64,000 nucleotides of DNA from Thiothrix subterranea (GTDB taxonomy: Bacteria > Pseudomonadota > Gammaproteobacteria > Thiotrichales > Thiotrichaceae). Made by a program: the position numbers and the translations under genes. Position 1 is the stretch's first letter, and each line of letters opens with the position of its first letter. Under the pieces are notes generated by a model. That model was not told the origin of the DNA. It worked only from the letters and a program-made list of their open reading frames with translations, and made no database searches. Positions 6,898-56,214 of this stretch are shown here, one piece after another. The stretch lies in assembly GCF_030930995.1 (NCBI RefSeq), contig NZ_CP133217.1, forward strand, positions 434,001 to 498,000, in the 5' to 3' direction.

Positions 6898-7701
6898 CTA
6901 CTTCGTCCAATAAAACCGATCCGGCATCCACTGCCCGCGCCCGATCTTCCGCCCCGCCTGCAAACTACCCCACGTATACGCCTGCGCCGCCGCCACCGCT
7001 TTGCTCATCTCCATCCCCTTCGCCAGATTCGCCGCGCAAGCCGAAGTCAACGTACACCCCGAACCGTGGTAAGTTTCCGGCAGCCGTTCCCACAACCAAG
7101 TGCGCAAGCGCTTACCATCGCCATACAGCGCATTTTCCACGCGCTCGGTTGCGGCATGAGTCCCGGTCAGCAACACGTATTCACAACCCTGATCCAGCAA
7201 GGAAAAGGCTTGCTCATCCAGCGTTGCACCCCTTACCGCCAGTTGGGTAGCTTCCGGCACATTCGGCGTCAGTAACGTGGTAAGGGGCAACAAATACTCA
7301 CGGATTGCCCCCAATAATTGCGCATTGGCGAAGTCCTTGCCGCCCCCAGCCGCTAACACCGGGTCAAGAATCACCGGCACATCCGGCGCTTGCAACAGAA
7401 TACGATGCACCGCGTGCACCACCTCCACACTGCCCAGCAAGCCGATTTTGAACGCCGCAATCGGCATATCCGCCAACAACGCCTCTGCTTGCTGCTCGAT
7501 CAAATAATCCGCCAGCGGCTCAATGCGTTGCACATTGCGCGTATCTTGTACGGTCAAACAGGTAATCACACTCACCGCATGACAGCCTTGACTCGCAATC
7601 GCCTCACTATCCGCCTGAATGCCTGCCCCACCCGTGGGGTCATGCCCCGCCAAGGTCATTACCACCGGTACTGCCGATGCAACGCTATGCTCTGTTAGCA
7701 A
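6898..7701 (-). CDS. thiD: Hydroxymethylpyrimidine/phosphomethylpyrimidine kinase
   Basis: A 267-residue ribokinase-fold enzyme that phosphorylates HMP and HMP-P for thiamine synthesis. Family motifs: MTLAGHDPTGGAGIQADSEA near the N terminus (substrate site), VILDPVLAAGGGKDF in the middle, and YHGSGCTLTSACAANLAKG near the C terminus with the anion hole and catalytic Cys/Asp-type loop. The start overlaps the 3' end of the acetyltransferase gene upstream by 7 nt, so the two are probably translated together. Confidence 0.95.
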   Translation of the reverse strand: MLTEHSVASAVPVVMTLAGHDPTGGAGIQADSEAIASQGCHAVSVITCLTVQDTRNVQRIEPLADYLIEQQAEALLADMPIAAFKIGLLGSVEVVHAVHRILLQAPDVPVILDPVLAAGGGKDFANAQLLGAIREYLLPLTTLLTPNVPEATQLAVRGATLDEQAFSLLDQGCEYVLLTGTHAATERVENALYGDGKRLRTWLWERLPETYHGSGCTLTSACAANLAKGMEMSKAVAAAQAYTWGSLQAGRKIGRGQWMPDRFYWTK

Positions 7702-10406
7702 CAGGAATCTCCTAAACGTTTACTCACCATCACGACACCATCGTCCATCCCATCCTGATGACGGGTGAACCCCAAACGCTGCATCAATTTCAGCATCCCG
7801 TGGTTATGCGGCAATACCTCGCCCTCAATGGTGCGCAAGCCTTTTGCCCGTGCCGCATCAATCAAGGTTTGCATCATCAAGCCACCCAAGCCCCGGTTCT
7901 GCCAGCCATCGGCAATCACCAGCGCAAATTCGCAGCTCATTTTATCGGGGTTAATCGCATACCGCGCCACCCCCATTTCCACTTCCTGCCCGTCTTGGCG
8001 GGTCAGTGCCAGAAACGCCATTTCACGGTCATAATCAATTTGCGTAAGACGCACCAGCATGTCGGGCGTGAGTTCGCGCAATGCCTGCATAAAGCGCATG
8101 TAGCGCGATTCTTTCGACAGATTACGCACGAATTCTTGCTCCATTTCCGCGTCTTCGGGGCGAATCGGGCGAATCACAATGTCCGTGCCATCCGGCAACT
8201 GCTGCCGCTTCACCAAATCATTCGGGTAGGGGTGAATCGCCATGTGATCATAGCGCCGCGCCGTGGTCGGCGGGTAGTTGATAATGAAACGCGCATCCAC
8301 CGCCATTACCCCATTAGCATCCGCCATCAGTGGATTGATGTCCATTTCCACTATTTCCGGTAATTCACACACCATTTCCGAGACGCGCTGCATCACTTTC
8401 CACAAGGAATCGAAATGAATCGGCGGCATATTGCGGAATTTACCCAGCAAACGCGCCACGCGGGTACGGCACACGGTTTTCTTAATCATGTAATCGTTCA
8501 AGGGTGGCAATGCCACGGCGCGGTCACGGTGAATTTCCACCGAAGTCCCGCCCATGCCGAAACTGATCACCGGGCCGAATACCGGGTCACGCACCACGCC
8601 GATCATCAGTTCACGCGATGAGTTGCTGTGATACATGCTTTCCACGGTCACGCCATCAATCCGCGCTTCTGGTAAATTGCGGCGGGTGGTTTCCAACAGC
8701 TCTTGGTAAACGCTGCGTACCGCGTGAGCGCTGGCAACGTTGAGGCGCACGCCATCCACATCCGACTTGTGGTGAATATCGGGGGAACTGATTTTCAGCA
8801 CCACCGGATAACCCAAGGATTCCGCCGCCACCAAAGCTTCCGCTGGACTGCGCACTAAAATGGTGGGTAACGCGGGAATACGAAACGCCGACAAAATCGC
8901 GCGGGATTCGGTGGTGGACAGCGCTCGCCGCCCTTCTGCCAACACGCTTTCGATGATTAATCGCGCCCCGTCCACGTCCGGTTCGGTTTTTTGCTCTTGC
9001 ACCGATGGCGGCACTTGCATCAGCAACTTCTGATTACTGCGGTATTGGGTGAGGTAAGCAAACGCCTCCACCGCTGCTTCCGGGGTACGGAAATGCGGCA
9101 CACCAGCTTCTGCCAATAGCTTGCGCCCTGCTGCCACTTGTTGCTCACCCATCCAACAGGTGAGAATCGGCTTGCAATGCTTGCCTTTTTTGCTAGTGTC
9201 ACAAATGTTGATCACCGTGGCGGCGACTCCGGCGGGGTCTGTCATGGCTTGCGGAGTCAACATCACCAGAATACCGTCGAGATTGTCATCCTGCATACAG
9301 ATTTTCAGCGCCGCCGCGTAACGTTCCGGGTCAGCATCACCGAGAATATCCACCGGATTGCCGTGCGACCACGTGAATGGCAATACTTTATTCAATTCTG
9401 CCAAAGTAGTGGGGGAAACCTCTGCCATGCGCAAGCCCATTTCCACCGCCCGATCCGTTGCCATCACACCGGGGCCGCCGCCATTGGTGATAATCAGCAA
9501 GCGGTCTTGCTGCACCCGAATGCCGGAAGAGAGGATTTGTGCCGCCGAAAACAATTGCGCAATGGTATTAGCGCGTACCACACCGGCACGTTCCAGCGCA
9601 GCATCAAAGGCATCATCGCCGCCTACAATTGCGCCCGTGTGCGACATGACCGCGCGCGAACCTTCTTCATAGCGCCCCGCTTTCAACACAATCACCGGCT
9701 TCATGCGCGAAGCGGTGCGCAAGCCGCTCATGAAACCGCGTGCATCGTGAATCCCTTCCACATACAACAAAATGCTGTCAGTTTTGGGATCAAGCGCCAG
9801 ATAATCGAGCGTATCGCCGAAATCCACATCCGCCGTATCGCCCAAGGTAATCACGGTGGAAAAGCCAATACCTTGCGTGGCGGCCCAATCCAAAATCGCG
9901 GTACACATTGCGCCGGATTGCGACACCAACGCCAGATTACCGGCTTGCGCCTGATTACGGCTAAACGTGGCATTCAAACCGACGGAGGGGCGCATAATCC
10001 CCAAACAATTCGGGCCAATGATGTGCATCGCGTATTGGCGGGCAATATCGGTAATGTCTTTTTGCAAACGCTGCCCGCGATTGCCCGCTTCAGCAAAGCC
10101 AGCGGACAGTACCACCACACCTTTCACCCCGTGTTCACCGCATTGGCGAATAATACTAGGGACAGTCGCAGCAGGCGTTGCCACTACTGCTAGGTCAACT
10201 GGCTTGTTCAACGCCACTAAAGTCGGATAAGCTGCTTGACCTTGAATCTCAGTATGCTTGGGGTTGATGGGGTACAACGCCCCTTTGAAGCCAGCGGACA
10301 ATAAGTTTTGGAACACCACAGTGCCCACGGCTTTTTCCCGCTCACTCGCACCGAATACCGCGACGCTTTGCGGGGCAAATAATTGATTTAAGTAATGGTG
10401 GCTCAT
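7695..10406 (-). CDS. Pat-type protein lysine acetyltransferase (NDP-forming acyl-CoA synthetase-like plus GNAT)
   Basis: A 903-residue protein. I chose the ATG at 10406 because AGAGG precedes it, it begins with the family's CoA-binding start (MSHHYLNQLFAPQSVAVFGA), and a longer reading would run into the divergent gene. Domain order: CoA-binding Rossmann domain (1-140), succinyl-CoA ligase-like domain (150-450), ATP-grasp domain (about 500-720), GNAT acetyltransferase (about 740-900, with NRGLGGLMMQTLI as the acetyl-CoA site). Such proteins (YfiQ/Pat) acetylate lysines, for example in acetyl-CoA synthetase. SHTGAIVGG retains a His where acyl-CoA synthetases carry the phosphohistidine. It stands back to back with a deacetylase-family gene. 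Confidence 0.88.
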   Translation of the reverse strand: MSHHYLNQLFAPQSVAVFGASEREKAVGTVVFQNLLSAGFKGALYPINPKHTEIQGQAAYPTLVALNKPVDLAVVATPAATVPSIIRQCGEHGVKGVVVLSAGFAEAGNRGQRLQKDITDIARQYAMHIIGPNCLGIMRPSVGLNATFSRNQAQAGNLALVSQSGAMCTAILDWAATQGIGFSTVITLGDTADVDFGDTLDYLALDPKTDSILLYVEGIHDARGFMSGLRTASRMKPVIVLKAGRYEEGSRAVMSHTGAIVGGDDAFDAALERAGVVRANTIAQLFSAAQILSSGIRVQQDRLLIITNGGGPGVMATDRAVEMGLRMAEVSPTTLAELNKVLPFTWSHGNPVDILGDADPERYAAALKICMQDDNLDGILVMLTPQAMTDPAGVAATVINICDTSKKGKHCKPILTCWMGEQQVAAGRKLLAEAGVPHFRTPEAAVEAFAYLTQYRSNQKLLMQVPPSVQEQKTEPDVDGARLIIESVLAEGRRALSTTESRAILSAFRIPALPTILVRSPAEALVAAESLGYPVVLKISSPDIHHKSDVDGVRLNVASAHAVRSVYQELLETTRRNLPEARIDGVTVESMYHSNSSRELMIGVVRDPVFGPVISFGMGGTSVEIHRDRAVALPPLNDYMIKKTVCRTRVARLLGKFRNMPPIHFDSLWKVMQRVSEMVCELPEIVEMDINPLMADANGVMAVDARFIINYPPTTARRYDHMAIHPYPNDLVKRQQLPDGTDIVIRPIRPEDAEMEQEFVRNLSKESRYMRFMQALRELTPDMLVRLTQIDYDREMAFLALTRQDGQEVEMGVARYAINPDKMSCEFALVIADGWQNRGLGGLMMQTLIDAARAKGLRTIEGEVLPHNHGMLKLMQRLGFTRHQDGMDDGVVMVSKRLGDSCC

Positions 10407-47978: not shown

Positions 47979-48013
47979 TACCTAGATTTGCTGAATTTTG
48001 GAGAGAGGAACTT

Positions 48014-48469
48014 ATGAAACGTAGAACATTTTTGCAAGGCACTTTAGCCGCCAGTGCCGCTGGCCTTGCGGTTAGCGCTGGCCTGCTGACACCCAGCATG
48101 GTTATGGCAGAAGGCGGCGGCGCATTTGACGCCAAAACCATGGAAGATGCCCTGAAAACCATGGCATTGACCCCGGAAGATTCCGCTGACATTAAAATCA
48201 AAGCCCCTGAAATTGCTGAAAACGGTGCAGTTGTCCCTGTCACTGTCACCTCCGGCGTTGCTGGCACGACTGAAATCAGCATTCTGGTAGATGGCAACCC
48301 TACCCCACTGGCGGCAACGTTCATCATGGGTGAAGGCACGCAACCGGAAGCCTCTACCCGTATCAAAATGGGCAAGACCGCTAACGTCGTGGCAATTGCT
48401 AAAGCCGGTGACAAATCGTACACCGCCAAGCAAGAAGTTAAAGTCACTATCGGCGGCTGCGGCGGCTAA
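48014..48469 (+). CDS. soxY: SoxY sulfur-carrier protein, copy 1
   Basis: A 151-residue periplasmic carrier. The N terminus is a Tat signal (MKRRTFLQGTLAASAAGLAV), and the protein ends in the swinging-arm sequence VTIGGCGG whose Cys carries the sulfur substrate. It forms a dimer with SoxZ. The protein sequence is identical to that of the second copy at 49820; the DNA differs at only a few silent positions. Confidence 0.96.
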   Translation: MKRRTFLQGTLAASAAGLAVSAGLLTPSMVMAEGGGAFDAKTMEDALKTMALTPEDSADIKIKAPEIAENGAVVPVTVTSGVAGTTEISILVDGNPTPLAATFIMGEGTQPEASTRIKMGKTANVVAIAKAGDKSYTAKQEVKVTIGGCGG

Positions 48470-48486
48470 TTCAGAGGAGCACACAC

Positions 48487-48795
48487 ATGTCTAGTATTAA
48501 ACTTAAAGCTGCGGTGAAAGACGGCACTGTCGAAGTCAAAGCACTGATGACACACCCGATGGAAACCGGGCAGCGCAAAGACAAGAAAACCGGCGAACTG
48601 GTTCCGGCGCATTTCATTCAGGACATCATCGTCACAGCGGGTGACAAGACTATCCTGACCGCCAAATGGGGCGGCTCTGTCTCCAAAAACCCTTACCTCG
48701 CGTTCAACTATGCGGGCAAGGCAGGCGACAAAGTGAAACTCGCTTGGACTGACAACAAAGGCGAGAAAGACTCTGCCGAAGCTGACGTTGCTTAA
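48487..48795 (+). CDS. soxZ: SoxZ, partner of SoxY, copy 1
   Basis: A 102-residue immunoglobulin-fold partner of SoxY: VEVKALMTHPMETGQRKD and AKWGGSVSKNPYLAFNYAGK are family hallmarks. No signal peptide; it is exported with SoxY through Tat. Product is identical to copy 2 at 50294. AGAGGAG precedes the ATG. Confidence 0.95.
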   Translation: MSSIKLKAAVKDGTVEVKALMTHPMETGQRKDKKTGELVPAHFIQDIIVTAGDKTILTAKWGGSVSKNPYLAFNYAGKAGDKVKLAWTDNKGEKDSAEADVA

Positions 48796-49698: not shown

Positions 49699-49723
49699 AA
49701 CCCGGCATTTCGCCGGGTTTTTT
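49699..49723 (+). terminator. Rho-independent terminator after soxA
   Basis: AACCCGGC and GCCGGGTT form a stem with a short ATTTC loop, followed by a T run. It lies 34 nt after the soxA stop and closes soxXYZA, so the second soxYZ needs its own promoter. Confidence 0.88.
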
Positions 49724-49744
49724 ATGCGAGTTCTTAAAAAAGAC

Positions 49745-49771
49745 GGAATATTTTTAGCGTTCAACACATCA
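49745..49771 (+). promoter_or_regulatory. Candidate ECF-sigma promoter of soxY2Z2
   Basis: GGAATATTTT (49745-49754), then 12 nt, then CATCA (49767-49771), starting 21 nt after the soxA terminator and about 48 nt before the soxY2 start. The motif and its flanks (AAAAAAGAYGGAATATTTT...ACCYCTG) recur before soxB, and a copy faces the sigma gene. GGAA-type -35 and C-TC-type -10 elements are the usual ECF promoter form. Confidence 0.6.
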
Positions 49772-49819
49772 TTACCTCTGAATGCTCACACTCACAACAC
49801 ATCTCTGGAGAGAGGAATT

Positions 49820-50275
49820 ATGAAACGCAGAACATTTTTGCAAGGCACTTTAGCCGCCAGTGCCGCTGGCCTTGCGGTTAGCGCTGGCCTGCTGACACCC
49901 AGCATGGTTATGGCAGAAGGCGGCGGCGCATTTGACGCCAAAACCATGGAAGATGCCCTGAAAACCATGGCATTGACCCCGGAAGATTCCGCTGACATTA
50001 AAATCAAAGCCCCTGAAATTGCTGAAAACGGTGCAGTTGTCCCTGTCACTGTCACTTCCGGCGTTGCTGGAACGACTGAAATCAGCATTCTGGTGGATGG
50101 CAACCCTACCCCACTGGCGGCAACGTTCATCATGGGTGAAGGCACGCAACCGGAAGCCTCTACCCGTATCAAAATGGGCAAGACCGCTAACGTGGTTGCG
50201 ATTGCTAAAGCCGGTGACAAATCGTACACCGCCAAGCAAGAAGTTAAAGTCACTATCGGCGGCTGCGGCGGCTAA
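49820..50275 (+). CDS. soxY: SoxY sulfur-carrier protein, copy 2
   Basis: A 151-residue protein identical in sequence to copy 1, with Tat signal and the C-terminal GGCGG. The ATG at 49820 follows GGAGAGAGGAA as in copy 1. It is transcribed separately, after the soxA terminator and from a candidate ECF promoter, and is followed by soxZ2. Near-identity at silent sites points to recent duplication or gene conversion. Confidence 0.95.
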   Translation: MKRRTFLQGTLAASAAGLAVSAGLLTPSMVMAEGGGAFDAKTMEDALKTMALTPEDSADIKIKAPEIAENGAVVPVTVTSGVAGTTEISILVDGNPTPLAATFIMGEGTQPEASTRIKMGKTANVVAIAKAGDKSYTAKQEVKVTIGGCGG

Positions 50276-50293
50276 TTCAGAGGAGAATCGATC

Positions 50294-50602
50294 ATGTCTA
50301 GTATTAAACTTAAAGCTGCGGTGAAAGACGGCACTGTCGAAGTCAAAGCACTGATGACACACCCAATGGAAACCGGGCAGCGCAAAGACAAGAAAACCGG
50401 CGAACTGGTTCCGGCGCATTTCATTCAGGACATCATCGTCACAGCGGGTGACAAGACTATCCTGACCGCCAAATGGGGCGGCTCTGTCTCCAAAAACCCT
50501 TACCTCGCGTTCAACTACGCGGGCAAAGCAGGCGACAAAGTGAAACTCGCTTGGACTGACAACAAAGGCGAGAAAGACTCTGCCGAAGCTGACGTAGCGT
50601 AA
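50294..50602 (+). CDS. soxZ: SoxZ, partner of SoxY, copy 2
   Basis: A 102-residue protein identical to copy 1. AGAGGAGA precedes the ATG. It ends 12 nt before a 28-bp palindrome, which may form the 3' end of the soxY2Z2 transcript. Confidence 0.95.
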   Translation: MSSIKLKAAVKDGTVEVKALMTHPMETGQRKDKKTGELVPAHFIQDIIVTAGDKTILTAKWGGSVSKNPYLAFNYAGKAGDKVKLAWTDNKGEKDSAEADVA

Positions 50603-50614
50603 TCTGCGCTGCCC

Positions 50615-50642
50615 GTAGAGACGCAAAATTTTGCGTCTCTGC
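50615..50642. repeat. 28-bp palindromic repeat, copy 2
   Basis: GTAGAGACGCAAAA followed by TTTTGCGTCTCT and GC in place of the final AC. It lies 12 nt past the soxZ2 stop. Same family as 21648 and 56237. It may act as a transcript-end hairpin, though no T run follows on the plus strand. Confidence 0.85.
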
Positions 50643-50711
50643 CACAACAATCATAACCACTGATCACTGCCCCACACACGCCCCCAACTGTCACGCTTTA
50701 CCGGAGGACTC

Positions 50712-51662
50712 ATGCGCGTTATCGCCGCATTCTTCACCCTTCTCTGTTTAACCATCGGGCTGAATGCCCGTGCTGACGACAAATTCCCTCCCGTCGTGAT
50801 GGAGCTGATCAATGTTTCCGAACACGTTTACTACGTGCAAGGCGCACCGGGTGCTGCCACCCAAAACCACGGTTTCATTTCCAACGCGGCGGTGATTATC
50901 ACGGACGAAGGCGTAATTTTATTCGATACCCTTGGCACACCAGCGTTAGCGCAATTATTCCTGCAAAAACTCAAAAAAGTGACTGACAAGCCGGTGAAAA
51001 AGGTGATTGTCAGCCATTATCACGCCGATCATATTTACGGTTTACAAGTATTCAAAGATTTGGGCGCGGAAATTATCGCCCCTGCCGGTGCTGAGGAATA
51101 TCTCAATTCTGAAAACGCCGAAACATTGCTGGCTTCGCGTCGCGCAGACCTTGCCCCGTGGGTCAATGCTGACACCCGCTTGGTTAAACCCGACCGTTAC
51201 GTCGATAGCAATGAAGAAATAACCCTTGGCGGTGTTACCCTCAAACTCATTTTCAACGGCAAAGCACATTCTGACGGCGACCAAAGTGTGCTGGTCGAGC
51301 CGGATGGCGTATTGCTGATTGGCGATTTGATTTTTGAAGGGCGCGTGCCTTTTGTCGGCGATGCCAATACCAAAATCTGGCTGGAACGCTTAAAAGACAT
51401 GGCGCAAGGCAAGCTCACTGCGATGGTTCCCGGTCACGGCCCGATGTCCAAAAAACCGCAGGAAGTGATTAAAACCACGGTGCAATACATCGAATTCCTG
51501 CGTGAAACCATGGACAAAGCCGTCGAAGACATGACCCCGTTTGACGAAGCTTATGCCGCCACCGACTGGGGCGATTTCATCCACCTGCCTGCATTTGAAG
51601 AAGCCAACCGCCGCAATGCTTATCAGGTCTACCTGTCGCTGGAACAGGAAGGAATGCAATAA
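50712..51662 (+). CDS. soxH: SoxH-like periplasmic MBL-fold hydrolase
   Basis: A 316-residue protein with a signal peptide (FFTLLCLTIGLNARAD) and the MBL-fold zinc motif SHYHADHIYGL, a later AHSDGDQSV with the Asp ligand region LIGDLIFEG, and VPGHGPMS. This is the form of SoxH and related quinoprotein-relay hydrolases found in sox clusters; SoxH is not essential for thiosulfate oxidation in model species and its substrate is unsettled. GGAGG precedes the ATG. It lies between soxZ2 and a secreted DsrE-family gene. Confidence 0.78.
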   Translation: MRVIAAFFTLLCLTIGLNARADDKFPPVVMELINVSEHVYYVQGAPGAATQNHGFISNAAVIITDEGVILFDTLGTPALAQLFLQKLKKVTDKPVKKVIVSHYHADHIYGLQVFKDLGAEIIAPAGAEEYLNSENAETLLASRRADLAPWVNADTRLVKPDRYVDSNEEITLGGVTLKLIFNGKAHSDGDQSVLVEPDGVLLIGDLIFEGRVPFVGDANTKIWLERLKDMAQGKLTAMVPGHGPMSKKPQEVIKTTVQYIEFLRETMDKAVEDMTPFDEAYAATDWGDFIHLPAFEEANRRNAYQVYLSLEQEGMQ

Positions 51663-51711
51663 ACACAATTTGAATTAGAACAATTTTATCAACCGTAGGA
51701 GGAGACGACCC

Positions 51712-52287
51712 ATGTTAAAACCAATCATACTGGGTTTATTGATGACTGCCAGCAGCGTTGCTGGTCTTGCAATCGCTGACGATGCCAAACCCGCTGAACC
51801 GAAAGCAGAAGCCGCCGCTGCTCCGGCTGCGGATGCTAAGCCCGCCGAAGCCAAGTTTGACCCCGGTGTGCCTGCGCCCAAAGTCGCTGACGACTATTAC
51901 GCCGGAGCTGAAAAAGTGGTAGTTCACGTCACAATGGAGGGTGACGAGAAGAAATACCTCGGCGTGCTGGGCAATGTCAGCAATTACATGAAAGCACTGG
52001 ATCAAACCGGCAAAAAAACCGATGCCGTCATTGTAATGAACGGCGATGGCTTAGGCTTGCTAACCACGGCTAAGCAAGTAGAAATGGACGCCGACGCTAA
52101 ACTGCCCGGCAAAATTTTGGAACTGAAGGAACAAGGCGTAAAATTCCAAATCTGCTACAACACGCTGACCGGGCGCAAAATCAAGTTTGCTGACTTGTAC
52201 GATGCCAAACCGGAAGACGTGATTCCCTCCGGTGTGGCGGAAGCAGGCCGCTTGCAATCGCAAGGCTATCAGCTACTGAAACCGTAA
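51712..52287 (+). CDS. Secreted DsrE/DsrF-family protein
   Basis: A 191-residue protein with a signal peptide (MTASSVAGLAIAD), an Ala/Pro/Lys/Glu-rich linker, and a DsrE-like domain from about residue 65. Conserved points are VVVHVTMEGDE, VIVMNGDGLGLL, FQICYNTLTGR with the family Cys, and the ending IPSGVAEAGRLQSQGYQLL. DsrE-type proteins carry sulfur on this Cys; secreted versions are found near sox genes. The linker resembles that of SoxX. It is probably cotranscribed with soxH, 49 nt away, and with the following DUF4395-like gene. Confidence 0.82.
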   Translation: MLKPIILGLLMTASSVAGLAIADDAKPAEPKAEAAAAPAADAKPAEAKFDPGVPAPKVADDYYAGAEKVVVHVTMEGDEKKYLGVLGNVSNYMKALDQTGKKTDAVIVMNGDGLGLLTTAKQVEMDADAKLPGKILELKEQGVKFQICYNTLTGRKIKFADLYDAKPEDVIPSGVAEAGRLQSQGYQLLKP

Positions 52288-52356
52288 TCGCAGCACAAGC
52301 ATGGAGCAGAAGTTATTCCGCTCCATGCTACCCTACCACGCTAGGAATTACCGCCC

Positions 52357-53076
52357 ATGGTCAATTGGATCATCACTTGCTGCAAGGATTTGTGGTTTCG
52401 CGACCGCAACGAAGTCAGCCCCTACATTAACGACACCGCCGTGCGTATTCGCGCCGGGCTGTTACTCGCGATTCCCATCTACATGGCGTTCACGCTGTTC
52501 GATGCCATCTTTGGTTCGGATTGGGTCATCACCGGCGAGGTCATTACCGACACGCTCGAAACCGATTTTGATGGGCGCATTATTTACAGCGTCGAAGCCG
52601 TCAAGCGCACGTTTGATTACAGCACGCAAACATGGGTGTTGTTTTATGCGTTGTTTGAAATGATTTCCGGCATGTTTGTAAGCACTTCGCGGCTTTCCCC
52701 CACCATTCTGCTCAGCAGCTTTCTGGCTAAAAATCTACGCCCGGTGTGGAAGCCGTTGCTGCCCAAACGTTTTGCTTGGTCGATTGGCGCAAGTTTTATT
52801 GTCACTTGCCTGATTTTCTTCAACCCCGAAATTTTCGCAGGCTGGGTGAATGCCATAGCAGGTAGCGAACAGTTGCCAGAAACGTACAACTACATGCCTT
52901 CATGGATTCCACTGGTGCTGGTGTGGGTGTGCTTTGGGTTTATGTGGATGGAAACAGTGCTGGGTTTCTGTGTGGGCTGCAAAATGCATTCCTTGCTGGT
53001 GCGGATGGGCTTATTGGAAGAGGAATGTGAGGCTTGCAATAATTTGGATTGGGGTGAGGCTGCTAACAAACGTTAA
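52357..53076 (+). CDS. DUF4395-like membrane protein
   Basis: A 239-residue protein with about four membrane segments (AGLLLAIPIYMAFTLFDAIF, WVLFYALFEMISGMF, FAWSIGASFIVTCLIFF, WIPLVLVWVCFGFMW). The C-terminal METVLGFCVGCKMHSLL with a C-x2-C pair is the pattern I associate with DUF4395; a second pair follows (CEAC). DUF4395 proteins occur with thiosulfate and sulfur-transfer genes in other bacteria, so a role in sulfur or thiol transport is possible. It lies between the secreted DsrE protein and the convergent anti-sigma gene. Confidence 0.6.
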   Translation: MVNWIITCCKDLWFRDRNEVSPYINDTAVRIRAGLLLAIPIYMAFTLFDAIFGSDWVITGEVITDTLETDFDGRIIYSVEAVKRTFDYSTQTWVLFYALFEMISGMFVSTSRLSPTILLSSFLAKNLRPVWKPLLPKRFAWSIGASFIVTCLIFFNPEIFAGWVNAIAGSEQLPETYNYMPSWIPLVLVWVCFGFMWMETVLGFCVGCKMHSLLVRMGLLEEECEACNNLDWGEAANKR

Positions 53077-53090
53077 CAGCATCGTAATCC

Positions 53091-53786
53091 CTAAATCGCA
53101 ATATAACGCCACCCATCGCGCATGTGGTTTACCACAAATTCCACGGCGGATGGGGCAACTTCGGTGTCATCGACCAGTTCGACGAATTCGTTACGTTGTT
53201 TGAACGAATACAAGGTATTGCTGCACGCCACAAATTTCAAATGCGGGTATTGCTCGCTCATTTGCAAAATACGCCCTTCGTGCCGGGTCGTACCAAGGCG
53301 CAATAAATCAATGCCTTCCGCACTGGTCACGACGTAAACACTGCCGTCCTTAGGAGCGACTTGCTGCGCTAGATTTTCGGCTTTCACCAAGGCTTTTTCC
53401 AGTTTGGCAGGCTCATGTGAGTCCAAAAACACGATGAAACGGTCGTCGTATGCCGCTGCATTTTCCAGTGTCAAACCTTCAGGTTGCCACAATTTCGGCG
53501 CGTAGTGGCTGCTGCCCGCGCCAGCAAGAAAGATCAGGCCGAACACCAATAAGTATATCGCCGCTTGTTGCCATACCTGCGTGCGACGCACGGGCTGACG
53601 GGTCAAAGCAGGCAAGGGGTAAGCCGATTTAACCAGATGTTTGATGCGCTGGATTTCACACAATTCTTTTTGCAGCTCAAGGTCAGTTTCCACTTGAGCT
53701 AACACGTAACGGGTTTGTTCAGCATCCAATTGCCCATCTGCCAATGCGTGCAGACGGTCGTGGATGGTTAGCTGATCGGGATTCAT
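53091..53786 (-). CDS. Anti-sigma factor with extracytoplasmic DsrE-like domain
   Basis: A 231-residue protein. Residues 1-70 are a helical cytoplasmic anti-sigma-like domain (LHALADGQLDAEQTRYVLAQ), residues 73-91 one membrane helix (QQAAIYLLVFGLIFLAGAG), and residues 115-231 a periplasmic domain resembling DsrE/DsrF (FIVFLDSHE, VYVVTSAEGIDLL, LKFVACSNTL with Cys188, then VAPSAVEFVVNHMRDGWRYI). The same block order is seen in the secreted DsrE protein at 51712. It overlaps the ECF sigma gene by 4 nt (ATGA), the usual sigma/anti-sigma pairing. It converges on the sox-linked DUF4395-like gene. The sensing role of the DsrE-like domain is inference. Confidence 0.78.
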   Translation of the reverse strand: MNPDQLTIHDRLHALADGQLDAEQTRYVLAQVETDLELQKELCEIQRIKHLVKSAYPLPALTRQPVRRTQVWQQAAIYLLVFGLIFLAGAGSSHYAPKLWQPEGLTLENAAAYDDRFIVFLDSHEPAKLEKALVKAENLAQQVAPKDGSVYVVTSAEGIDLLRLGTTRHEGRILQMSEQYPHLKFVACSNTLYSFKQRNEFVELVDDTEVAPSAVEFVVNHMRDGWRYIAI

Positions 53787-54322
53787 TTCACTCTCCGTAA
53801 ATAGTGAACGTTGTCAGTTTGACGGATACCTTGCAGGCGTTTTTTCATGGTTTCGCGGGCGCGGCTGAGGCGGCTCATCACCGTTCCTACCGGAATATCG
53901 AGGATCGCGGCAACTTGTTCGTAGCTGCATCCTTCCAAATCCACCAAGGTCATCACTTGGCATTGATTCACAGGAAGCGATTCCACAGCAGTACGCACTT
54001 GCGTGACCAGTTGGTCATCGGCGAAGTGTTTTTCGGGGCAATCCGTACAGGTTAGCTCCATGTCGTCGATGTCCAGCGTCGGCTTTTGGGTGCGCAAATG
54101 CTCCATCCAGCAGTTGTGGAGGATTTTGTACAGCCACGCGCCTAAACGCGCTTCATCTTTCAGTTGTTCTTGTTTTTCTAGGGCTTTTGCAAGGGTGTCT
54201 TGCACCAGATCGTCGGCTAACGCGCTATCGCCACACCATGCCACTGCCATGCGATGCAGCTTGGCGCGGTGTTCCGACAACTGCTGGTCGAGACGGTTAA
54301 AACGAAAATACTGACTAAACAT
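53783..54322 (-). CDS. ECF-family RNA polymerase sigma factor
   Basis: A 179-residue sigma factor. Region 2 (VAWCGDSALADDLVQDTLAKAL, then LGAWLYKILHNCWMEHLR) and region 4 (LPVNQCQVMTLVDLEGCSYE, then IPVGTVMSRLSRARETMKKR) are clear. The linker contains a C-x2-C (CTDCPEKHF), uncommon for ECF factors. It is divergent from soxB and followed directly by a membrane anti-sigma factor. A promoter-like site matching those at soxB and soxY2 faces this gene at 54360-54386, which suggests autoregulation. Confidence 0.93.
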   Translation of the reverse strand: MFSQYFRFNRLDQQLSEHRAKLHRMAVAWCGDSALADDLVQDTLAKALEKQEQLKDEARLGAWLYKILHNCWMEHLRTQKPTLDIDDMELTCTDCPEKHFADDQLVTQVRTAVESLPVNQCQVMTLVDLEGCSYEQVAAILDIPVGTVMSRLSRARETMKKRLQGIRQTDNVHYLRRVK

Positions 54323-54359
54323 GTGGTTTATAAGTTTCTCTTAGCGGCTCTATTGCACA

Positions 54360-54386
54360 TGATGCAGAAAATTGACGAAATATTCC
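54360..54386 (-). promoter_or_regulatory. Candidate ECF promoter of the sigma gene
   Basis: On the minus strand: GGAATATTTC (54386-54377), 12 nt, CATCA (54364-54360), ending 38 nt before the sigma start. It is the same form as at 49745 and 54396. Its -35-like part and that of the soxB site are inverted copies (AAATATTCC, 9 nt, GGAATATTT), so the pair could alternatively be an operator for another regulator. Confidence 0.5.
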
Positions 54387-54395
54387 AAAAAAGAT

Positions 54396-54421
54396 GGAAT
54401 ATTTTCACCTGCACCCCGTCA
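54396..54421 (+). promoter_or_regulatory. Candidate ECF promoter of soxB
   Basis: GGAATATTTT (54396-54405), 11 nt, CGTCA (54417-54421), ending 48 nt before the soxB GTG. It matches the soxY2 site in both elements and in flanking bases (AAAAAAGATGGAATATTTT and CACTACCCCTG). It overlaps a longer possible reading of soxB, which supports the GTG start. Confidence 0.6.
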
Positions 54422-54468: not shown

Positions 54469-56214
54469 GTGAGTTTAACCCGTCGTGAATTTATGCAAAT
54501 GTTGGCCGCCGCCAGCGTTGCCGGTTTCAGCCTGAATAACGCTTTTGCAGCAGATGCCAGCAAAGAAGGCGACAAAACCGCTGTCAAAGCCCCCAGCAAC
54601 CCGTATGAACTGCCCGCGTTCGGTAACGTATCGTTGATGCATTACACCGACTGCCACGCACAATTATTACCAATTTACTTCCGCGAGCCGAACGTGAATC
54701 TGGGTATCGGCAGTATGAAGGGTGCCGTGCCGCACTTGGTCGGCGAACACTTCCTGAAAAAGTACGGCATTGAAGCCGGTACGATGGATGCGCACGCTTT
54801 CACCTACATTGATTACGTTGAAGCCGCGAAAAAATACGGCAAAGTCGGTGGTTTTGCTCACCTGAAAACCTTGGTTGACCAAGTGCGTGCACAACGCCCC
54901 GGTTCATTGCTGCTCGACGGCGGCGATACATGGCAAGGTTCGTGGACAGCGTTGAAAACCAATGCGCAAGACATGGTAGACGCACAGCTTGCCTTGGGCG
55001 TGGATGTAATGACCCCGCACTGGGAAATGACCTTCGGCGCGGATCGCGTCAAAGAAATCGTCGAGAAAGATTTCGCGGGCAAAATTGATTTCGTTGCGCA
55101 AAACGTTTTCAGCAACGACTTTGATGAGCGCGTGTTTGAACCGTTCGTGATCAAAGAAATCAACGGCGTGCCGGTAGCGATTATTGGGCAGGCGTTCCCG
55201 TATGTGCCGGTTGCTAACCCCAAACACATGGTCGCAGACTGGAGCTTCGGTATCCGTGACGACGACATGCAGCAAGCGGTCGATGATGCGCGTAGCAAAG
55301 GCGCGAAAGTCGTCATTATGCTGTCGCACAACGGCATGGACGTTGACCTGAAAATGGCCAGCAAAGTCACCGGCATTGACGCGATCATGGGCGGTCATAC
55401 CCACGATGGCGTATTCCAGCCTGTGGTTGTTGAAAATTCAGGCGGCAAAACGCTAGTCACGAATGCAGGTTCCAACGGCAAATTCCTCGGCGTACTCGAT
55501 CTGGATGTGAAAGACGGCAAAGTGGCGGATTTCCGTTACAAATTACTGCCGGTATTCTCTAACTTGTTGGAAGCCAACAAGGATATGCAGGCACTCATCG
55601 ACAAAATCCGTGAACCGTACAAGAAAGAATTGGCGGAAGAACTCGCGGTGTGCGATGACGTGCTGTACCGCCGTGGCAATTTCAACGGCACTTTCGACCA
55701 ATTGATCTGCGACGCACTCATGGAAGGTTTGGACGCACCACTGGCATTCTCACCGGGCTTCCGTTGGGGTACGAGCGTACTGCCGGGTCAACCGATCACG
55801 TTTGAACACGTTGCTGACCAAACCGCGATTACTTACGGCACGGTCACACGTAACGAAATGACTGGCGAAACCATTAAAACCATCCTCGAAGACGTAGCCG
55901 ATAACCTCTTCAACGAAGACCCTTACTACCAGCAAGGCGGTGACATGGTGCGTGTGGGTGGTTTGAAGTTCACGTTTGATCCAACCGCGAAAATGGGCAA
56001 TCGCGTCTCTGACATGGAACTTGGCGGCAAACCCTTGGATGCGGCAAAAACCTACCCGGTCGCAGGCTGGGCAAGTGTCCAAGAAGAAGTAAAGCCTAAC
56101 AAGCAAATCTGGGAAGTCGTCGCCGACTACCTGCGCGACAAAAAGACCATTGGCAAGATCGAGCTGAATACGCCGAAACTCAAAAACGTGGACGGCAACG
56201 AAGGCTTAGCGTAA
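54469..56214 (+). CDS. soxB: SoxB, dimanganese thiosulfohydrolase
   Basis: A 581-residue protein. I chose the GTG at 54469 because GAGGAGAG precedes it and it gives a Tat signal (SLTRREFMQMLAAASVAGFS). The 5'-nucleotidase-fold metal site is seen in LMHYTDCHAQLLP, LLDGGDTWQGS, VIMLSHNGMDVDLK and IMGGHTHDGVF. SoxB releases sulfate from the SoxY-bound intermediate. It stands alone, divergent from the ECF sigma gene, 3.8 kb from soxY2Z2. Confidence 0.96.
   Translation: MSLTRREFMQMLAAASVAGFSLNNAFAADASKEGDKTAVKAPSNPYELPAFGNVSLMHYTDCHAQLLPIYFREPNVNLGIGSMKGAVPHLVGEHFLKKYGIEAGTMDAHAFTYIDYVEAAKKYGKVGGFAHLKTLVDQVRAQRPGSLLLDGGDTWQGSWTALKTNAQDMVDAQLALGVDVMTPHWEMTFGADRVKEIVEKDFAGKIDFVAQNVFSNDFDERVFEPFVIKEINGVPVAIIGQAFPYVPVANPKHMVADWSFGIRDDDMQQAVDDARSKGAKVVIMLSHNGMDVDLKMASKVTGIDAIMGGHTHDGVFQPVVVENSGGKTLVTNAGSNGKFLGVLDLDVKDGKVADFRYKLLPVFSNLLEANKDMQALIDKIREPYKKELAEELAVCDDVLYRRGNFNGTFDQLICDALMEGLDAPLAFSPGFRWGTSVLPGQPITFEHVADQTAITYGTVTRNEMTGETIKTILEDVADNLFNEDPYYQQGGDMVRVGGLKFTFDPTAKMGNRVSDMELGGKPLDAAKTYPVAGWASVQEEVKPNKQIWEVVADYLRDKKTIGKIELNTPKLKNVDGNEGLA

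Follow-up and report, generated by a model that had tools for sequence, protein, structure and literature searches.

A putative ECF anti-sigma factor with a DsrE-fold outer domain beside the sox genes of Thiothrix subterranea

It is poorly understood how sulfur oxidizers sense sulfur compounds such as thiosulfate and induce sox in response (PMC10451225). A locus of Thiothrix subterranea raises the question of whether a membrane protein could read such compounds outside the cytoplasm and pass the signal to the sox genes. In a 64,000-nucleotide stretch of contig NZ_CP133217.1 (positions 434,001 to 498,000 of the forward strand; hereafter, the window), the gene of an extracytoplasmic function (ECF) sigma factor is followed by the gene of a putative anti-sigma factor, whose outer part is predicted to have the fold of the sulfur-carrier protein DsrE. 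Computation on this and related loci yields the gene pair, the fold, an invariant lone cysteine (Cys188), a promoter motif with its positions, and a co-occurrence of the fusion with soxB. From these observations, we infer that loading of Cys188 with sulfur would release the sigma factor.

The gene pair and its DsrE-fold domain

The sigma gene (54322-53783) and the anti-sigma gene (53786-53091) both lie on the minus strand and overlap by 4 bp. The features of the pair are the following:

53783..54322, minus strand: ECF sigma factor, 179 aa (Sigma70_r2 and Sigma70_r4_2)
53091..53786, minus strand: putative anti-sigma factor with an extracytoplasmic DsrE domain, 231 aa (open reading frame, sigma context of its relatives, fold)
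53607..53786, minus strand: N-terminal helical, presumed sigma-binding domain, residues 1-60 (predicted helices, weak profile matches)
53508..53570, minus strand: single membrane helix, approximately residues 73-93 (hydropathy, 1.95)
53094..53447, minus strand: predicted DsrE-fold domain, residues 114-231 (1l1s match, profile, fold)
53223..53225, minus strand: codon of Cys188 (68/68 relatives; the lone Cys of the outer part)

The sigma factor belongs to the ECF type, with regions 2 and 4 of sigma-70 both found above the Pfam cutoffs (Sigma70_r2, PF04542, E = 5e-13; Sigma70_r4_2, PF08281, E = 2e-15). It scores 82.6 bits against the NCBIfam model TIGR02937 (sigma70-ECF; cutoff, 42.9); its top-scoring NCBIfam model, PRK12511, stays below its own cutoff. 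The window anti-sigma protein has no naming family match in Pfam or NCBIfam, and its nearest named relatives, at 68 to 88% identity, come from four Thiothrix loci and one Candidatus Thiothrix locus. We regard this membrane protein as a putative inhibitor that would bind the sigma factor. An earlier note, made from the letters of the window alone, had described an ECF sigma factor paired with an anti-sigma factor that carries a DsrE-like domain; the Pfam sigma domains and the 4-bp overlap bear out the pair, while adjacency to sigma genes and the predicted fold support the fusion.

A profile search for such fusions, which the earlier note had proposed as a check, was run with a 16-row profile (E ≤ 1e-10) on a sample of 370 genomes of Gammaproteobacteria. 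The profile matched in 95 of them, and in 73, belonging to 42 families, the match coordinates span both the N-terminal and the DsrE domains. Within the genus Thiothrix, 15 of 16 genomes (that of the window included) encode the protein at full or near-full length. Neighborhoods were examined in 58 of the 73 fusion genomes (again with that of the window) and in 2 genomes of a phylum-wide sample; adding the window and five named Thiothrix loci to these 60 stretches gives a set of 66 loci with 68 fusions. By reading, a sigma gene lies directly upstream of the fusion in all 68 cases. An automatic rule (sigma gene within 200 bp) recovers 61 of them, the other seven failing through over-extended start calls with a sigma open reading frame at the expected place. 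In one locus, L003, the sigma frame scores lower and stops 165 bp early. Two loci (L090 and L098) each carry a tandem of two complete sigma/anti-sigma-DsrE pairs, and in L071 an extra ECF sigma-like gene (7303-7812) sits right behind the sigma, anti-sigma, and DsrE genes. Among 397 phylum-wide genomes, no fusion was found outside Gammaproteobacteria, as all 4 full-length matches (E ≤ 1e-18, that of T. subterranea included) fall within the class. Other classes gave 12 partial matches, and the 6 examined are unfused DsrE proteins with a hydrophobic stretch at the N terminus. No relative was found on plasmids.

Residues 114 to 231 are predicted to adopt the DsrE fold. A sequence search of the PDB at E ≤ 10 returned a sole match, 1l1s (MTH1491; E = 9e-5, residues 116 to 229), with which the ACSNTL segment of the anti-sigma protein, including its Cys, aligns, and a profile built from 54 relatives improves this match to 7.6e-22. 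An AlphaFold model, computed from six Thiothrix sequences, has a poor mean predicted local distance difference test (pLDDT) value over the whole protein (62.9), with residues 54 to 112 under 50 and ten-residue blocks from residue 111 onward at 56 to 89. In this model, residues 114 to 231 form an alternating alpha/beta domain that matches 1l1s with a Z score of 15.3 and a root mean square deviation of 2.1 over 109 residues, followed by 2pd2 (Z = 15.1), YchN (12.4), DsrE (2hy5; 11.1), and a chain of TusBCD (2d1p; 10.7). The comparison with DsrE/DsrF therefore came out DsrE-like. A C-terminal region unlike DsrE was an outcome that the earlier note had named as refuting; the predicted structure instead confirms its central observation. 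The top ten structural matches range from Z = 15.3 to 9.9, and the eleventh, the first unrelated one, drops to 7.0. Six of these ten carry names of the DsrE, DrsE, or Tus type; for 1l1s, 2pd2, YchN, and BT1422, the title gives a gene name or says unknown, and we take them to be DsrE-fold proteins as well. MTH1491, ST0148 (2pd2), YchN, and DsrE/TusD share the fold with the outer domain, and 1l1s also shares the position of the Cys, but they are titled as separate proteins, and none of the matches is a membrane anti-sigma fusion. The Pfam family DsrE (PF02635) has no match in the window anti-sigma protein and matches 17 of its 54 relatives (E ≤ 0.01). Because the window protein misses PF02635 while its fold and profile match, we file the domain as DsrE-fold and not as a member of Pfam DsrE.

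The family Cys had been placed at residue 188 in the earlier note. The position is correct: Cys188 is found in 68 of 68 fusions, none of which has a second Cys after residue 100, and it aligns with the Cys of 1l1s. Only three residues, Asp17, Cys188, and Trp226, are invariant across 54 aligned fusions. A sulfur modification of Cys188 may be the signal that the protein reads.

RseA and MucA have an N-terminal helical domain, one membrane helix, and a periplasmic C-terminal domain, and their genes follow the sigma gene. The protein studied here shares this layout, whereas its sequence similarity to anti-sigma factors of this type is marginal, and the outer parts of RseA and MucA are, to our knowledge, not DsrE proteins. 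In the window protein, zf-HC2 scores below the Pfam cutoff; among the 54 relatives, the weak anti-sigma profile matches (E ≤ 0.01) comprise zf-HC2 in 15 and RseA_N in 1. Positions 5 to 52 of the profile of 54 relatives match a MucA-type chain at E = 0.21 and an RseA chain at E = 0.3, both weakly. Taken alone, the N-terminal domain gave no sequence match, and a structure search with a model of that domain only gave nothing above Z = 4.4. Cys43 (codon 53658-53660), which lies in the presumed sigma-binding, cytoplasmic part, is kept in 55 of 68 fusions.

The earlier note had set the membrane helix at 73-91; the best 19-residue hydropathy segment starts nearby, at residue 75, with a mean of 1.95. 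Hydropathy of at least 1.6 over 19 residues is reached in 55 of 68 fusions, in 54 of those 55 as a single segment; the remaining 13 peak lower, 12 of them being listed at 1.14 to 1.59 around residues 71 to 82. The N-terminal side of the helix is the more positive one in 63 of 68 relatives, which in this hydropathy-based topology places the N terminus inside.

The promoter motif and the sox genes

Counts of 5-mer/4-mer pairs upstream of the sigma genes, with four of six Thiothrix loci left out, brought up GGAAT-N17-CGTC before 31 of 64 genes, whereas no pair exceeded 5 in one resampled set. Written as GGAATA-N15..17-C(G/A)TC, the motif precedes 53 of 68 sigma genes (the L003 gene excluded and the extra L071 gene included; mean of 0.09 over 200 resampled sets), with a spacer of 16 in 43 cases and 15 in 10. 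It also precedes 20 of 46 secreted dsrE genes (mean of 0.085 in 200 resampled sets), namely, 19 of the 29 on the strand opposite to the sigma gene and 1 of the 16 on the same strand. Since dsrE genes on the opposite strand need a promoter of their own and those on the same strand could use the sigma promoter, this pattern fits an autoregulated ECF sigma factor that drives dsrE. The sigma factor probably recognizes the GGAATA-N15/16-C(G/A)TC motif, and its most constant targets appear to be the sigma gene itself and the secreted dsrE.

The window contains three matches to the motif (0.44 expected), located before the sigma gene, soxB, and the second of two soxY copies:

54361..54386, minus strand: ECF-type promoter motif of the sigma/anti-sigma operon, GGAATA-N16-CATC
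54396..54420, plus strand: ECF-type promoter motif of soxB, GGAATA-N15-CGTC
54469..56214, plus strand: soxB, divergent (TIGR04486, 866.8 bits; cutoff, 550)
49745..49770, plus strand: ECF-type promoter motif of the second soxYZ, GGAATA-N16-CATC
49820..50275, plus strand: soxY, second copy (PF13501, 7e-32)
50294..50602, plus strand: soxZ, second copy (PF08770, 4e-37)

The sigma-side and soxB-side motifs stand back to back between the divergent genes, whose orientation the earlier note had read correctly. In the fusion-bearing Thiothrix loci (L006-L020), the soxB-side motif is present in 15 of 15 and the sigma-side motif in 14 of 15, with varying intervening spacers. Among 13 Thiothrix genomes with two syntenic soxY copies (the contig-end fragment L237 being left out), the motif precedes exactly one copy in 12; in the other genome, G059, neither copy has it under the strict pattern. 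The two soxYZ copies of the window (48012-48785 and 49818-50592) lie 1.8 kb apart in one sox cluster, with the ECF-type promoter on the second only. They share 99% DNA identity over 300-nt repeats, and both SoxY proteins are 100% identical to the query. A hairpin with a T run, read by eye at about 49700-49724 and absent from the hairpin scan listing, lies ahead of the second soxYZ, for which a separate promoter is therefore probable.

In G050, the sole Thiothrix genome examined that lacks the fusion, soxXYZAB is contiguous. Within the 18 kb examined there, the second soxYZ and the hydrolase, dsrE, DUF4395, anti-sigma, and sigma genes are all missing between soxA and soxB, and no motif lies near the sox genes. 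The segment that spans the second soxYZ through the sigma promoter (49745-54420) thus resembles a cassette set between soxA and soxB.

Beyond the genus, soxB (TIGR04486) is encoded in 72 of the 73 fusion-bearing genomes, compared to 90 of the 297 others. The lone fusion genome without soxB, G113, is 93% complete. When the 600 bp upstream of soxB were searched in non-Thiothrix genomes, 30 with and 30 without the fusion, the motif was found in 11 and 0 of them, respectively (Fisher test, P = 3e-4; resampled means, 0.06 and 0.07). Four test genomes had been seen beforehand (positives G418, G166, and G130; negative G176), and without them the counts are 8 of 26 and 0 of 30 (P = 0.001). Among 20 sox loci that serve as an illustration, having been partly picked for known matches, 13 have the motif before soxX and/or soxB, and in 8 of the 20 it also stands before a soxX that heads a soxXYZAB cluster. 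The tie to sox suggested in the earlier note is supported by the back-to-back motifs in Thiothrix, the co-occurrence with soxB, and the motif before soxB in other lineages.

A genome-wide excess of the motif in the T. subterranea genome (80 matches versus 29 for the reversed pattern) was dropped as regulon evidence, the matches lying mostly within reading frames. The ratio of motif to reversed pattern is near 1 in G050 and in five other relatives that lack the pair. One match in the T. subterranea genome (C2 1314992-1315017; L153) lies 84 bp before a long frame whose product presumably resembles the carboxysome protein CsoS2.

The neighborhood of the pair further includes the following genes:

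51712..52287, plus strand: secreted DsrE-family protein, presumed partner (PF02635, 5e-7, above cutoff)
52357..53076, plus strand: DUF4395 protein; its gene ends the run and is convergent to the anti-sigma gene (PF14340, 1.5e-15)
50712..51662, plus strand: SoxH-like metallohydrolase (Lactamase_B; TIGR04559, 185.7 bits, below the cutoff of 280)

A stand-alone secreted DsrE is present in 43 of the 66 fusion loci, in agreement with the association that the earlier note had drawn between the two proteins. That note had placed the window copy 1 kb away; it is indeed nearby, but it ends 803 bp from the anti-sigma gene. Both the N-terminal hydrophobic stretch and the family Cys are found in 44 of 46 stand-alone relatives. 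Forty-five dsrE genes could be placed relative to the sigma gene, and 44 lie within 2.5 kb of it; of these, 23 are located upstream in opposite orientation and 16 downstream in the orientation of the sigma gene. The porin-like family that travels with the secreted DsrE (e.g., L078, 8158-9498) occurs in 28 of 66 loci, in 25 of them together with it; the prevailing gene order has porin and dsrE on one strand and sigma and anti-sigma divergent. Two porin-like members were scanned, one of which exceeds the Porin_4 cutoff (33.6 versus 27 bits), while the other, a fragment, falls below it. One porin-like member is faintly like ExtI, a porin of a selenite/tellurite operon (21 bits; cutoff, 150). Members of the sox cluster lie near the pair in 12 of 66 loci; in L108 and L115, two of these, the product counted with SoxB is longer (724 and 710 aa) and is a candidate SoxB. 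The hydrolase gene lies about 110 bp behind the second soxZ and possibly shares a transcript with the second soxYZ. Between them is a perfect palindrome of 24 nt that lacks a T run (50617-50640), which may affect transcription into the dsrE gene.

The proposed mechanism and its alternatives

We propose that the single-pass anti-sigma factor would hold the ECF sigma factor at the inner membrane and that its periplasmic DsrE-type sulfur-carrier fold, with one invariant Cys, would act as the sensor. Periplasmic processing of reduced sulfur compounds would put a sulfur group on Cys188, either directly or via the secreted DsrE, itself induced by the sigma factor. The earlier note had likewise proposed that persulfidation of Cys188, perhaps with the secreted DsrE or SoxY as donor, might free the sigma factor in the presence of reduced sulfur; its interpretation is partly supported, through the fusion and the ties to the secreted DsrE and to sox. 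The anti-sigma factor would then be inactivated, probably by regulated proteolysis; we assume this step by analogy with the proteolysis of other membrane anti-sigma factors outlined in the introduction of PMC3445524. The freed sigma factor would transcribe its own operon and the secreted dsrE, together with the porin in a large number of lineages. In Thiothrix and some of the other lineages, it would also drive soxB and soxYZ or a soxX-led cluster via GGAATA-N15/16-C(G/A)TC. The DsrE fold with one invariant Cys, the motif-bearing secreted dsrE, and the nearly exclusive occurrence in genomes with SoxB point to sulfur chemistry on Cys188. We see the chances of the full model, in which sulfur-loaded Cys188 frees an ECF sigma factor that drives its own operon, the secreted dsrE, and sox in Thiothrix and some other lineages, as evenly balanced. 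More tentatively, and as a possibility that falls short of probable, we suggest a transmembrane sulfur-relay receptor, in which the secreted DsrE would pass sulfane or thiosulfonate sulfur to the anti-sigma DsrE domain and so set sox transcription, with positive feedback on dsrE, in many sulfur-oxidizing families of Gammaproteobacteria.

Several observations weigh against the full model. For the N-terminal domain, neither fold nor sequence comparison gave a significant match to anti-sigma domains of known structure, and the co-occurrence tests ignore phylogeny. No motif stands before soxB in 19 of the 30 fusion-bearing genomes tested, and it is likewise missing there in the same-family fusion genomes G008, G012, G014, and G018. 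In the 1,100 bp upstream of soxY (some stretches shortened by contig ends, second copies without a locus left out), the motif occurs in 5 of 29 fusion-bearing and 1 of 29 fusion-lacking genomes, which is not significant (P = 0.19). In the T. subterranea genome, 67 of the 79 motif matches analyzed in retrieved stretches overlap a frame of at least 130 aa by a crude rule that also rejects the sites of soxB and the second soxY, whose frames start too early; the filter passed 8 matches, two of which are one sigma site seen from two loci. Genome G050 agrees with the model, but since the entire block between soxA and soxB is missing there, it cannot separate the loss of the sigma factor from the loss of the block. 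Given the positive soxB test, the nonsignificant soxY test, and the absences within the same family, sox appears to be in the regulon in Thiothrix and in some but not all other lineages.

The sulfur chemistry might differ from that of a sulfane sulfur sensor. A DsrE homologue bears thiosulfonate on its Cys (PMC4175335), a warning that the adduct here could be a thiosulfonate derived from tetrathionate and not a persulfide; moreover, the ECF26 sigma factors of Sinorhizobium respond to sulfite-generating compounds (PMC3511301). The same switch and regulon could then sense polythionates or oxidized sulfur intermediates instead of sulfane sulfur, through thiosulfonate from tetrathionate or through other S-sulfonate, sulfite, or oxidant chemistry. 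We consider this unlikely, as DsrE3A has two conserved Cys residues (PMC4175335) versus one in this domain, and added sulfite gave no significant reporter induction in the Sinorhizobium work (PMC3511301).

The DsrE domain might also be a protein-binding module for the secreted DsrE or the porin, with Cys188 in a structural or modulatory role and the envelope state or substrate uptake as the signal. DsrE-type proteins do oligomerize, DsrE3A forming homotrimers (PMC4175335), anti-sigma factors with ligand-binding outer domains exist, such as RsiV with lysozyme (PMC4183432, PMC5014341), and the candidate ligands are frequent neighbors of the pair (of 66 loci, 43 encode the secreted DsrE, 28 a porin-like protein, and 25 both). 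However, that Cys188 is among three invariant residues and is the lone outer Cys in 68 of 68 fusions suits chemistry better than binding, and the secreted DsrE likewise retains its Cys (44 of 46), which leaves the binding module rather improbable in our judgment. Although the porin-like neighbors, the weak RseA/MucA similarity, and the many fusion-bearing genomes without a sox motif would agree with an ordinary envelope-stress ECF pair, with an outer domain derived from DsrE and a tie to sox that is confined to Thiothrix and coincidental in other lineages, the presence of soxB in 72 of 73 fusion-bearing genomes and of the motif before it in 11 of 30 versus 0 of 30 makes this very improbable.

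Comparison with known systems

A sulfur-responsive ECF switch, which is the reading we prefer, can be compared with several described regulators. In Sinorhizobium, the ECF26 sigma factors RpoE1 and RpoE4 control sulfite oxidation (PMC3511301). In S. meliloti, they likewise form ECF pairs, with COG5662 anti-sigma factors, are activated while thiosulfate or taurine is metabolized, and target SorT and themselves, but they are alphaproteobacterial and act on a sulfite dehydrogenase rather than on sox (PMC3511301). A text search of that paper found no DsrE domain, the only match to "dsre" being DsRed. In Arcobacter, ECF sigma factors up- or downregulate sox genes (PMC3445524) and thus likewise act on sox, although in a member of Epsilonproteobacteria, unlike here; "DsrE" does not occur in the main text of that paper. 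SoxR, a sulfane-sulfur-responsive repressor, also exerts Cys-based, sulfur-responsive control of sox, but it is a DNA-binding protein with two conserved Cys residues (PMC10451225), whereas the present protein would be a transmembrane switch with one outer Cys.

The ECF pair is of a known kind, and its sensor domain is of a type for which no description was found in the literature searched. A text search for "DsrE" found the term neither in a survey of class I anti-sigma factors (PMC7406223) nor in a 2021 review of ECF sigma factors (PMC8103513). The earlier note had known of no anti-sigma factor with this domain, and the search, which left subscription journals mostly uncovered, likewise gave none.

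The sigma/anti-sigma pair offers a candidate sulfur receptor with a single outer Cys, together with a promoter motif and the genes that it may control. Among the named strains that carry the pair are Thiothrix caldifontis DSM 21228 and T. lacustris DSM 21227. If the model is true, sulfur-carrier chemistry would join the signals that are read by ECF anti-sigma factors.
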